Origin: Flavobacterium sp. 90
GTDB taxonomy: Bacteria > Bacteroidota > Bacteroidia > Flavobacteriales > Flavobacteriaceae
DNA: 64,000 nt
Assembly: GCF_004339525.1 (NCBI RefSeq)
Contig: NZ_SMGE01000001.1
Coordinates: 372,001 to 436,000, forward strand
Reading direction: 5' to 3'
In this document: positions 4,427 to 39,992 of the stretch, piece after piece
How positions within the stretch are numbered: the first letter of the stretch is position 1
Layout of the letters: each line of letters begins with the position of its first letter
Position numbers and translations under genes: made by a program
The notes under the pieces: model-generated
The model's database searches: none
What the model saw: the letters and a program-made list of their open reading frames with translations, nothing else
What the model was told of the DNA's origin: nothing

Positions 4427-4888
4427 CTAAATTAATTCCTTAAAAATAAACTTTTCATCATAATCTATTTCAAATTTTTCAAGAAAGTCAATATATTCTT
4501 CTCTAAAAGTTTTCTTTTTATGATGCGCTTCCTGATTCTGAATATAATTACCTACCGCATTTAGCTGAGATTTACTATATGAAAACGCTCCATATCCTTC
4601 TTGCCATTCAAAATGAGATTTTAGTAACTTACTTGTATTAATCCACTTTGAAGAATCTTGTTTGATATTTTTCATCAAATCAGAAATAGATTGTGCAGGT
4701 CTTATTCCAATTAAAACATGAATATGATCGGAAACACCATTTATAGCGAGAAGTTTATGATTATTATTTTTGATAATACCTGTAATGTATTTATATAGTT
4801 CTTCTTTCCAATCGTTATGTATTATTGCTTGCCTAAATTTTACAGCAAAAACAAAATGAATGTGTATTTGAGTGTATGTATTTGCCAT
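4427..4888 (-). CDS. IS200-like HUH tyrosine transposase (RAYT-like)
   Basis: 153 residues. The HUH metal motif is H55-I-H57 within SDHIHVLIG. The catalytic tyrosine is Tyr115 in the typical YIQNQ motif of Y1 (IS200/IS605) transposases. Family knowledge: these enzymes nick and rejoin single-stranded DNA at hairpins. No IS ends or TnpB partner are visible. Instead the gene lies beside an array of palindromic repeats, with an inverted repeat unit starting 5 bp upstream of its ATG. This is the arrangement of REP-associated tyrosine transposases, which mobilise or maintain REP sequences. No matching repeat is seen past its stop codon. Confidence 0.85.
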   Translation of the reverse strand: MANTYTQIHIHFVFAVKFRQAIIHNDWKEELYKYITGIIKNNNHKLLAINGVSDHIHVLIGIRPAQSISDLMKNIKQDSSKWINTSKLLKSHFEWQEGYGAFSYSKSQLNAVGNYIQNQEAHHKKKTFREEYIDFLEKFEIDYDEKFIFKELI

Positions 4889-9840: not shown

Positions 9841-9934
9841 TTCAGGAGCTAATCCCGCTATCCATTTCAATCTTTTGTGCCGAACCCCGGCACAAAAGGA
9901 TTTCCACTTCTATCGGGGCTAGGGCAATCATTTT
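9841..9934 (+). repeat. structured intergenic element CAGGAGC...GGGCTAGGGC, copy 1
   Basis: Begins ttcaggagctaatcccgcta, contains a hairpin TTTTGTGCC/GGCACAAAA, and ends tatcggggctagggcaatc. Copies at 19627-19720 and, inverted and weaker, at 61300-61398 share the ends but carry a different internal stem. It may belong to the structured-RNA/repeat families typical of flavobacteria (Flavo-1 is one possibility; not verified). Confidence 0.65.
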
Positions 9935-10140: not shown

Positions 10141-10259
10141 GCATTTGTGTCATTTCGACGGAGGAGAAATCACACTAGAAACTCTGCAATCAAAATCGCC
10201 AATCTTTGTCGAGTTTCTTGCGAAGATTTCTCTCCCGAAGTCTCGGGATCGAAATGACA
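10141..10259. repeat. nuclease-less GTCATTTCGAC repeat pair
   Basis: The left arm gtcatttcgacggaggagaa and an inverted right arm (gagtttcttgcgaagatttc ... gatcgaaatgac) lie about 40 bp apart. The same two arms bracket the GIY-YIG nuclease gene at 39.4-39.9 kb. This copy carries no gene and so looks like a non-autonomous derivative. Confidence 0.7.
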
Positions 10260-10279
10260 AATTAAACGAAAAATGCTTG

Positions 10280-19626: not shown

Positions 19627-19720
19627 TCAGGAGCTATTTCCTGCTGTCCACTATATCTTTTCCTGGCTAAAGGAGCCAGAAAAAGGATGCCGTTCCCATC
19701 AGGGCTAGAGCAATCATTTC
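19627..19720 (+). repeat. structured intergenic element CAGGAGC...GGGCTAGAGC, copy 2
   Basis: Same outer sequence as 9841-9934 (caggagctatttcctgc ... atcagggctagagcaatc). The internal hairpin is TTTTCCTGGCT/AGCCAGAAAA instead of TTTTGTGCC/GGCACAAAA, so the stem is kept although its sequence differs. Confidence 0.65.
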
Positions 19721-38134: not shown

Positions 38135-38234
38135 GTTTCAGATTGTTGATTTTAGATTTCTATGCACTTGTCAGGCTGAGCGAAGTCGAAGTCTCAGCGC
38201 AATCTTGTCATTTCTGTAGATGTTAGATATTTCG

Positions 38235-38267
38235 GTAACAAAATTTAACTTTAATAAATTTTGTTAC
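38235..38267 (+). promoter_or_regulatory. 12-bp hairpin abutting the transposase start codon
   Basis: GTAACAAAATTT/AAATTTTGTTAC with a 9-nt loop; the stem ends 1 nt before the ATG at 38269. In read-through transcripts it would bury the translation start. Such leader hairpins are known to limit transposase expression in other IS elements. Confidence 0.6.
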
Positions 38268-38268
38268 G

Positions 38269-39243
38269 ATGAGAAATAATAGTCAGGATTCCACTTTAGA
38301 GCGGAACTACTTAGAGAAGTATCGTTTTCTAATAAAAGAATATGAACAGGTAAAAAATAAAACTCATCCTTTGTATAAAAAAGCAATGGATTTTTATGCA
38401 GCAAATAATACTTGCCGAAAGAGTTTTTTAAAGTATTATAATCGCTTTAAACAAAGTGGGAAATCTATTGATTTATTGCCCCAAAAAAGAGGTCCCAAAT
38501 ATAAAACAAGACGTCCTTTGCCTTTTATAGAGCAAAAAGTAATTGCATTGCGAGAAAAAGGAAACAACAAATATGAAATTGTTAGTATCTTAAGGCCCAA
38601 ATTAGGGAAGCATACACCATCATATTCAGGAGTTTATAATATTTTAAAACGCAATAAAATAAATAGATTAACTCCGAAGATTAAAAAGAATCATCAAAAA
38701 ATAATCAAGGAAAGAATGGGACAACTTGGTCATATTGATTGTCATTATTTGAGCAAAAGTATAATTAAAGGGGAAAATAAAAATCGCTATTTAGTTTGTG
38801 TAATAGATGATTACAGTCGAATTGCCTGGGCTGAATTAGTTTCTGATATTACCAGTTTAACAGTTATGTTTGCGGCATTGAAATGTTTAAACATCCTAAG
38901 TGATCATTATGAAATAAAATTTGAAGAGATATTATCTGATAATGGAGCTGAATTTGGACCTAAAACAAGCAAAGTGAAAAATAATCACCCTTTTGAGAGG
39001 ATGTTAATGGAATTAGGTATTGTTCATAGGTACACAAAACCCTACAGACCACAAACTAATGGTAAAGTTGAACGCTTTTGGAGAACTCTTGAAGATGATT
39101 TATTGAGAGACACAGATTTTGATTCTCATGAAGAATTAAAAGAAGAATTATTGCAATACTTATATTATTATAATCATGAAAGACCACATCAAGGTATTGA
39201 TGGAAAAAAACCAATCGAAATGATAAATCCGTTACCGAAATAA
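38269..39243 (+). CDS. IS481-family DDE transposase
   Basis: 324 residues. N-terminal helix-turn-helix region (NNTCRKSFLKYYNRFKQSG; a second HTH with NKYEIVSILRPKLGKHTPS), then an rve integrase core: first Asp in GHIDCHYLSK, second Asp in ILSDNGAEFGP, and Glu in TNGKVERFWRTLEDDL. A C-terminal RPHQGIDGKKPIEM segment is typical of the family. It catalyses cut-and-paste or copy transposition of its own element. Appears intact. Confidence 0.9.
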   Translation: MRNNSQDSTLERNYLEKYRFLIKEYEQVKNKTHPLYKKAMDFYAANNTCRKSFLKYYNRFKQSGKSIDLLPQKRGPKYKTRRPLPFIEQKVIALREKGNNKYEIVSILRPKLGKHTPSYSGVYNILKRNKINRLTPKIKKNHQKIIKERMGQLGHIDCHYLSKSIIKGENKNRYLVCVIDDYSRIAWAELVSDITSLTVMFAALKCLNILSDHYEIKFEEILSDNGAEFGPKTSKVKNNHPFERMLMELGIVHRYTKPYRPQTNGKVERFWRTLEDDLLRDTDFDSHEELKEELLQYLYYYNHERPHQGIDGKKPIEMINPLPK

Positions 39244-39252
39244 GTAACCTTT

Positions 39253-39470
39253 ACAATTTCGACAGAGGAGAAATCCTCACAAGAAACTCCGCAAAGTATA
39301 TCATTCAGTAATATAAATGCGAACGTTCACACCCAGTTTGTCATTTCGACGAGGGAGAAATCCTCGCAAGTAACTCCGCAAAGTAATTATCATTCAGTAA
39401 TCTCAATACAAACGTTCACACCCAGTTTGTCATTTCGACGAAGGAGAAATCCTCGCAAGAAACCCCATAA
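39253..39470 (+). repeat. tandem GTCATTTCGAC repeats (left side of GIY-YIG unit)
   Basis: Three direct units of gtcatttcgacgaaggagaa + atcctcgcaagaaactccgc, period 88-89 bp (starts near 39253, 39341, 39430). Between them runs a conserved filler with atcattcagtaat and aacgttcacacccagtttg. The last unit is the left inverted partner of the arm at 39896-39933. Confidence 0.85.
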
Positions 39471-39540
39471 AGTATATCAAAGAAAGAAAATTAAAAAGAA
39501 AGAAAAATCTTAAAAAATATTCTATCTTTCGGCAAAAAGA

Positions 39541-39855
39541 ATGGAACATCAAGAAGGCTATCACACTTACTACATATACATATTAACAAATAAATACAAA
39601 ACCGTTTTCTACACCGGAGTTACAAATAACTTAAAAATTCGTTTAAGTCAGCATCAAGAAACCAAAACAATTGTAAACAAAACCTTTACCTCAAAATATA
39701 ATGCGACATTTTTGCTCTACTACGAAAAATTCACTTGGATTCAAGCAGCAATCGCCCGAGAGAAAGAAATAAAAGATTGGCGCAGAGAAAAGAAAATCGA
39801 ATTAATAAAAACTATAAATCCTGATCTTGATTTTTTGAATTATTTATTTCCATGA
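39541..39855 (+). CDS. GIY-YIG nuclease family protein
   Basis: 104 residues, a single GIY-YIG (UvrC N-terminal/URI) domain. The GIY-equivalent is YIYIL (residues 11-15), the YIG-equivalent is YTG (24-26) in FYTGVTNNL, the catalytic Arg is in LKIRLSQH (Arg34), and the metal-binding Glu follows in AIAREKEIKDW. The fold cuts DNA with one divalent metal. Family members of this small size are common and unassigned. Here the gene is bracketed by inverted copies of a 38-bp repeat at 39429-39466 and 39896-39933, suggesting that the nuclease acts on or spreads with that repeat (inference). Confidence 0.9.
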   Translation: MEHQEGYHTYYIYILTNKYKTVFYTGVTNNLKIRLSQHQETKTIVNKTFTSKYNATFLLYYEKFTWIQAAIAREKEIKDWRREKKIELIKTINPDLDFLNYLFP

Positions 39856-39895
39856 TTTTATATCCAAATCTCCGAATAACATTACCAATCTTTGT

Positions 39896-39933
39896 GGAGT
39901 TTCTTGCGAAGATTTCTCCTTCGTCGAAATGAC
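39896..39933 (-). repeat. right inverted arm of the GIY-YIG unit
   Basis: Inverse copy of the 39429-39466 unit, 36 of 38 positions identical (core gtcatttcgacgaaggagaa). The match continues weakly inward (acaaag/ataaag). Confidence 0.85.
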
Positions 39934-39992
39934 AAGATTATGGATAATTGGGAGTTTAAAATGAAATTAGATTTTTAATTAAAAGGAAAAAT

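Follow-up and report, generated by a model that had tools for sequence, protein, structure and literature searches.

A small GIY-YIG nuclease gene in Flavobacterium bracketed by inverted, coded hairpins akin to CGTC/TGTC-tagged REPs

The window analyzed here is a stretch of 64,000 nt from Flavobacterium sp. 90 (assembly GCF_004339525.1, contig NZ_SMGE01000001.1, positions 372,001–436,000, forward strand). It contains, at 39541–39855 on the plus strand, a gene for a 104-residue protein that is recognized as a GIY-YIG nuclease by its open reading frame, Pfam match (51.7 bits; cut-off, 22.6), alignment, model, and fold. Residues Y13, Y24, G26, R34, H38, E74, and N93 are invariant in an alignment of 24 rows, and the residues that we take to be the catalytic set of small GIY-YIG proteins are present. 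NCBIfam has no named family for the gene, and assignment to a defence-system protein was rejected, the only match being a partial one to UzuA (E 0.0016). The gene lies between a left arm at 39427–39472 (plus strand; hairpin GTCATTTCGACGAAGGAGAAATC at 39429–39451) and a right arm at 39890–39935 (minus strand; hairpin at 39911–39933), which is the inverse of the left arm over 46 nt (93% complementary) at a distance of 417 nt, confirming the bracketed arrangement described in an earlier note on this DNA. That note also counted three direct copies on the left with a period of 88–89 bp. The copies do exist, starting at 39256, 39343, and 39432 (the second hairpin occupying 39340–39362, plus strand), with spacings of 87 and 89, but the leftmost one is not intact in place: only its right part remains at 39256–39275 (plus strand), the GTC of the same copy being found at 38207–38209. 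It is split by a 1,041-bp IS481-like insertion (38215–39255, plus strand; transposase, 38269–39243) bounded by terminal inverted repeats, with ATTTC (5 bp) duplicated at its sides, and the locus start formerly placed at 39253 falls within this insertion. The transposase scores 198.4 bits against NCBIfam IS481, under the family cut-off of 224. The end of the same IS481-like transposase is found at most 294 bases before the gene at a contig end in another locus (L009). Because the insertion in the window sits exactly in a hairpin arm, and in view of the L009 case, hairpin arms may be a preferred target of this element. Beside the nuclease locus, at 38169–38190, there is also an GTCAGGCTGAGCGAAGTCGAAG repeat, which resembles the same GA-type code and occurs after the decarboxylase gene in L119 and L120.

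Each arm is a coded hairpin of the form GTC-AT-NNN-GA-loop-GA-N'N'N'-AT-C, composed of five pairs, a tandem GA, one or two further pairs, and a loop of mostly 3–4 nt. The anchored pattern GTCAT-NNN-GA-N3-9-GA-NNN-ATC, whose fixed AT and GA restrict the test to the triplets and the loop-closing pair, gave 239 copies in 80 homologue loci (see below) and the window. Among them, the triplets are complementary in 229 (shuffled mean 74, maximum 97) and the loop-closing pair is Watson–Crick in 237 (shuffled mean 131, maximum 155), and complementary triplets occur in 45 of the 55 distinct hairpin forms; the loop is G-N-A or G-N-N-A in 223/239. Nearest-neighbour DNA folding of a single arm does not give the hairpin as the best structure. 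Tandem GA with GNA loops is unusually stable in DNA, and folding models of this kind may miss that stability. The case for the predicted hairpin is built on covariation.

The own genome (6.65 Mb) contains 204 hairpin copies (109 + 95) at up to 3 mismatches, whereas the backwards pattern gives none, so that the repeat is beyond chance; AT is present in all 204 copies, but it is part of the search pattern, by which copies without AT would be missed. A looser pattern fixing only GTCAT, the two GA, and ATC finds 242 matches versus 1 backwards. In the 100 listed copies, out of the 204 or 242, on which the pair statistics are based, four stem types are found with the looser pattern, and complementary triplets in 96. 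Many copies sit in 98-bp pairs with the tags outward: 26 such pairs take up 52 of the 100 listed copies, the second hairpin beginning 74–76 bp after the first, and inward pairs within 200 bp number 0 in the same list. The two arms of a pair tend to match each other, with the same loop base in 22/26 pairs (shuffled mean 12.9) and identical arms in 20/33 listed pairs (shuffled mean 6.2, maximum 15), and single arms can also differ, as seen in the mixed pairs. On the left side, T precedes the GTC tag in 19/20 own pairs, the tag being TTGTC. Identity is 98% in the hairpins versus 44% in the spacers, a contrast biased by the choice of 20 loci for exact hairpins, 16 of which were compared. The nuclease-less pair of the window is likewise real, consisting of a plus-strand hairpin at 10149–10171 and a minus-strand hairpin at 10225–10258 with the tags outward (10149–10258), the right hairpin having a longer inner stem. 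Two Flavo-1 sRNA matches (Rfam RF01705) are present in the window at 9847–9924 and 19633–19710, and about 225 bases separate the end of the first from this pair.

The association of gene and hairpin was examined in homologue loci. Genome contigs were scanned, and the best 80 of the 124 loci obtained were kept, their titles nearly all reading Flavobacterium or Flavobacteriaceae. In a local alignment of the 400 bp preceding the gene to the inverted 400 bp following it, 61/80 loci had inverted flanks at a score of at least 36, versus 0/455 shifted controls (control maximum 35). A strict hairpin is present on both sides of the gene in 46/80 loci, and at least one within 600 bp in 75/80; altogether 216 strict hairpins lie within 600 bp and 22 further out, whereas shuffled sequence gives 3 in 786 kb. 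The nuclease gene is not always located between inverted arms, since inverted flanks are missing from 19 loci, among them every one of the 11 in one synteny group (G1), where 10 carry hairpins solely downstream of the gene; nevertheless, with 61 loci bracketed, it is not the case that most carriers of the gene lack the flanking repeat. The stem type follows the protein tree, requiring 19 changes versus 36.6 with shuffled labels on a tree of 71 rows (10 of 81 omitted for stops in the translated stretch) in which, given the shortness of the protein, many forks are unresolved. TTC stems are found in two separate clades, which differ in the tails after the hairpin (TTCGCAAG versus ACACTAG types). 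The partnership between nuclease and repeat is thus real and recurrent, being well supported by these loci, and the idea of a nuclease with cognate repeats following a REP-like logic, put forward in the earlier note, gains support from the inverted flanks, from the agreement of stem type with the protein tree, and from the outward-tag geometry shared by the gene-less pairs. The own genome has two more small GIY-YIG genes, L001 and L004, and no strict hairpin occurs in the flanking sequence retrieved for either. In another GIY-YIG clade (L169, L155, L254, and L256), the gene is accompanied by GTCATTGCGAGGAACGAAGCAATC hairpins, which in L169 flank it on either side as inverted copies.

The partnership was also seen in loci drawn across the phylum. 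A profile search found the protein in 132/296 genomes and 73/139 genera of that draw (E ≤1e-15). Flanks were compared in 25 further loci, the best matches, of which 7 belong to the own genus; a 26th (L266), whose flank was short, was excluded. Inverted flanks at a score of at least 36 occur in 13/25 loci versus 1/50 controls (maximum 40), and a complementary GTCAT...ATC hairpin lies within 300 bp of the gene in 22/25, including 16/18 outside the own genus. Hairpin density falls from 4.2 per kb within 300 bp to 0.12 per kb at 1–1.5 kb; within 600 bp of the gene, twelve stem triplets are found, and GA is present on both sides in 60/75 hairpins. These results bear on the reading of the repeats as terminators or RNA elements of intergenic space and of the gene as an unlinked, ordinary repair nuclease, as might be thought from the strong fold of the gene-less pair (10141–10265; z −5.13) and from the position of the fetched pairs, 0/20 of which lie inside an open frame of at least 130 codons. 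Neither the stems following the protein tree nor the fall in density away from the gene is explained in that way, and Rfam has no family on the element, so that we hold this reading to be very improbable. A known RNA family was rejected as a candidate, none of the three Rfam matches in the window being on the element.

Another supposition would be that a transposase, RAYT or other, mobilized the pairs, the GIY-YIG gene having been trapped between two arms as a passenger. Y1 transposases were indeed found in 6/6 genomes searched, one of them in the window. At the 23 Y1 loci of these six genomes, however, the hairpin is found within about 1.5 kb of none (one loose-pattern match in L224 does not fit the hairpin code), and several of the loci are accompanied by different inverted repeats, whereas around the GIY-YIG gene the hairpin is found again and again, in different synteny groups as well as in the phylum draw. 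RAYT was accordingly rejected as the mover, and the passenger reading as a whole is given very little credence. The Y1 match of the window itself (4532–4876, minus strand; RAYT-like) lies close to other short inverted motifs, for example GTTCCGTTAGGAACTAAATGTTGG: the stretch holds a second system that combines a gene with repeats.

Gene presence and copy number were compared in 150 Flavobacterium genomes, 119 of which have a match to the protein, with the repeat counted as the window's type at ≤1 mismatch. The 31 genomes having no match contain a median of 0 copies (4/31 have any; maximum, 12), whereas the 10 genomes with a homologue at E ≤1e-54, the own genome included, contain a median of 53.5 and at least 10 each. 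Copy number is thus higher with a closer homologue, a comparison confounded by kinship and genome size. An equal abundance of the repeat in genomes without the gene, which would have told against the earlier note, was not observed; yet G103 and G136, both rich in the repeat (86 and 49 copies, respectively), have distant homologues only, and in G103 a strict hairpin occurs in the flanks of 0/4 small GIY-YIG loci fetched, a fifth such locus (165-residue open frame) being outside that count. Repeats of the TCC type are present in 30/32 genomes reached via the loci (the genome of L060 left out), whatever the arm type of the locus, TTC included; therefore, abundance specific to a type is unsupported, and most TCC-bearing genomes may hold several paralogues, by which interpretation of these counts is hampered.

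In the window, the nuclease gene is located downstream of a diaminopimelate-decarboxylase gene, as it is in 24/80 loci by direct match, and the synteny group at this neighbourhood comprises 27/81 loci, that of the window included; the remaining loci fall into 31 synteny groups, 26 of which contain a single locus, some because contigs end. The gene is therefore mainly inherited in place. Two loci (L033 and L046) have neighbours in common with groups G2 and G1 in opposite orientation, and in genome G008 (L117) the decarboxylase gene and the downstream regulator are present with neither gene nor hairpin between them. The earlier note regarded the bracketed gene and the gene-less pair as autonomous and non-autonomous forms of one mobile palindrome; the two do have the same outward-tag geometry, but movement of the gene-bearing unit is unsupported, with one neighbourhood accounting for so many of the loci. 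Gene-less pairs, by contrast, are present or absent at orthologous sites: at the sites of three own-genome pairs compared in 14 relatives, hairpins are present in 10/14 (L132), 0/14 (L135, where one weak hairpin-like match in L198 was taken as chance), and 7/14 (L140), with an altered hairpin in L189 too at the L132 site. At two of the three sites, relatives have pairs of other hairpin types. At the L132 site, L177, L184, and L187 have GAGGAACGA-type hairpins in both arms (those of L187 one base apart), and the others have GACGAAGGA, with differing centres. At the L140 site, both arms in L209 are GACCGAAGGGA, whereas the own element has GACGAAGGA; as the centres of the two elements are nearly the same, rewriting in place is suggested. 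L212 has the same type as L209 and a different centre. Independent insertion could also account for the cases other than L209. The insertion borders at L135 and L140 are unreadable because the intergenic flanks have diverged.

The observed partnership, stem covariation, clade-linked target type, dimer geometry, presence or absence of pairs, and differing types at shared sites are consistent with a site-specific GIY-YIG nuclease that targets its own flanking hairpin, with cutting and repair rewriting the arms, and we somewhat favour this explanation. In the predicted mechanism, the small nuclease would recognize the hairpin as a folded single strand through the GTC tag, the AT, the three coded base pairs, the tandem GA, and the small loop. 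The gene with its arms may be regarded as an outward-tagged REP dimer enclosing a gene, and the roughly 200 other copies as the same target without a gene, in dimers or singly. When the hairpin is exposed in single-stranded DNA, as might occur on the lagging strand, during DNA uptake, or in recombination, the nuclease would cut there, and the arm would be rewritten in place as it is repaired from a different copy, by which targets and nuclease would stay matched while arms spread and homogenize. Single-strand cleavage, copying, and cleavage as the driver of rewriting are thus what we infer. Alternatively, the nuclease may serve the host in the manner reported for Ssn in Neisseria: by cutting single-stranded DNA at the repeats, it would tune natural transformation or recombination, and the repeats would be kept for that purpose without spreading selfishly. 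The single neighbourhood of the 27/81 loci, the invariant residues intact in the 24 aligned rows, and the hundreds of target copies in the genome would suit such a role; in contrast, a stop inside the frame in at least 6/80 homologues, the 31/150 genus genomes having no match, and the coexistence of paralogues with different putative targets would not, and we judge it unlikely, with perhaps a quarter of our confidence.

The proposed self-targeting nuclease is worth comparing with known repeat systems. Ssn proteins are said, in a 2025 paper, to be GIY-YIG single-strand nucleases associated with the NTS repeat of Neisseria; that system is reportedly alike in having a small GIY-YIG protein and hundreds of repeats of a GTCAT-hairpin-ATC type, and set against it are the inverted-arm bracketing, the tandem-GA code, and the several paralogues per genome seen here. 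This reported pair already weakens the view of the earlier note that the kind might be undescribed. Like RAYT/REPIN, the present system has a gene between inverted repeats that also exist as gene-less dimers genome-wide, but the enzyme is GIY-YIG instead of an HUH Y1 enzyme, and the tag is TGTC (TTGTC) instead of GTAG. We know of no repeat partner for UPF0213 and other solved GIY-YIG proteins. A literature search, with subscription journals mostly outside its reach, found no paper joining GIY-YIG with these repeats.

According to Di Nocera et al. 2013 (PMC3733652), CGTC-tagged REPs, which likewise contradict the notion of an undescribed kind, have a tag that can also be TGTC, AT first in the stem, stems of 8–9 bp, loops of 4–5 nt, and predominantly HH dimers; their hosts include Bacteroidetes, Neisseria dRS3 is a member, and they are apparently without a dedicated transposase. 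The repeats described here are alike in the GTC tag after T with AT in the first stem positions, in the prevalence of outward (HH) dimers (52/100 listed copies so paired, 0 inward), and in the lack of a tyrosine transposase beside them at the Y1 loci (0/23, 6 genomes). They differ in having three coded pairs, the tandem GA, and one or two pairs in place of the 8–9-bp stem, unless GA counts as paired, in having loops of mostly 3–4 nt in place of 4–5 nt, and in bracketing a nuclease gene, a feature absent from the 2013 account in its available part (PMC3733652). GIY-YIG is also absent from the main text, as available, of a 2018 survey of HUH nucleases (PMC6006769). The present system thus appears to be a variant that connects CGTC/TGTC-tagged REPs with an Ssn-like GIY-YIG nuclease. 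The 2013 survey left open which enzyme, if any, serves CGTC-type REPs, and the GIY-YIG enzyme is a candidate partner in Bacteroidota for a repeat class reported without one. More tentatively, and with clearly less confidence than for the mechanism at the flanking hairpin, small GIY-YIG nucleases may be the missing partners of these REPs throughout Bacteroidota, spreading them transposase-free by structure-guided cutting and repair that rewrites the arms, so that each nuclease lineage would remake the hairpins of its genome in its own stem code. The readable target code, the paralogues with different putative targets, and the sites differing between relatives make both partnership and specificity testable, and structure-specific single-strand nucleases, if such they are, would be useful tools. 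Finally, a recurrent variant arm was observed in L009, L119, L189, and L217, in which the hairpin is extended by an GAGCGATAGCGA-like stretch.
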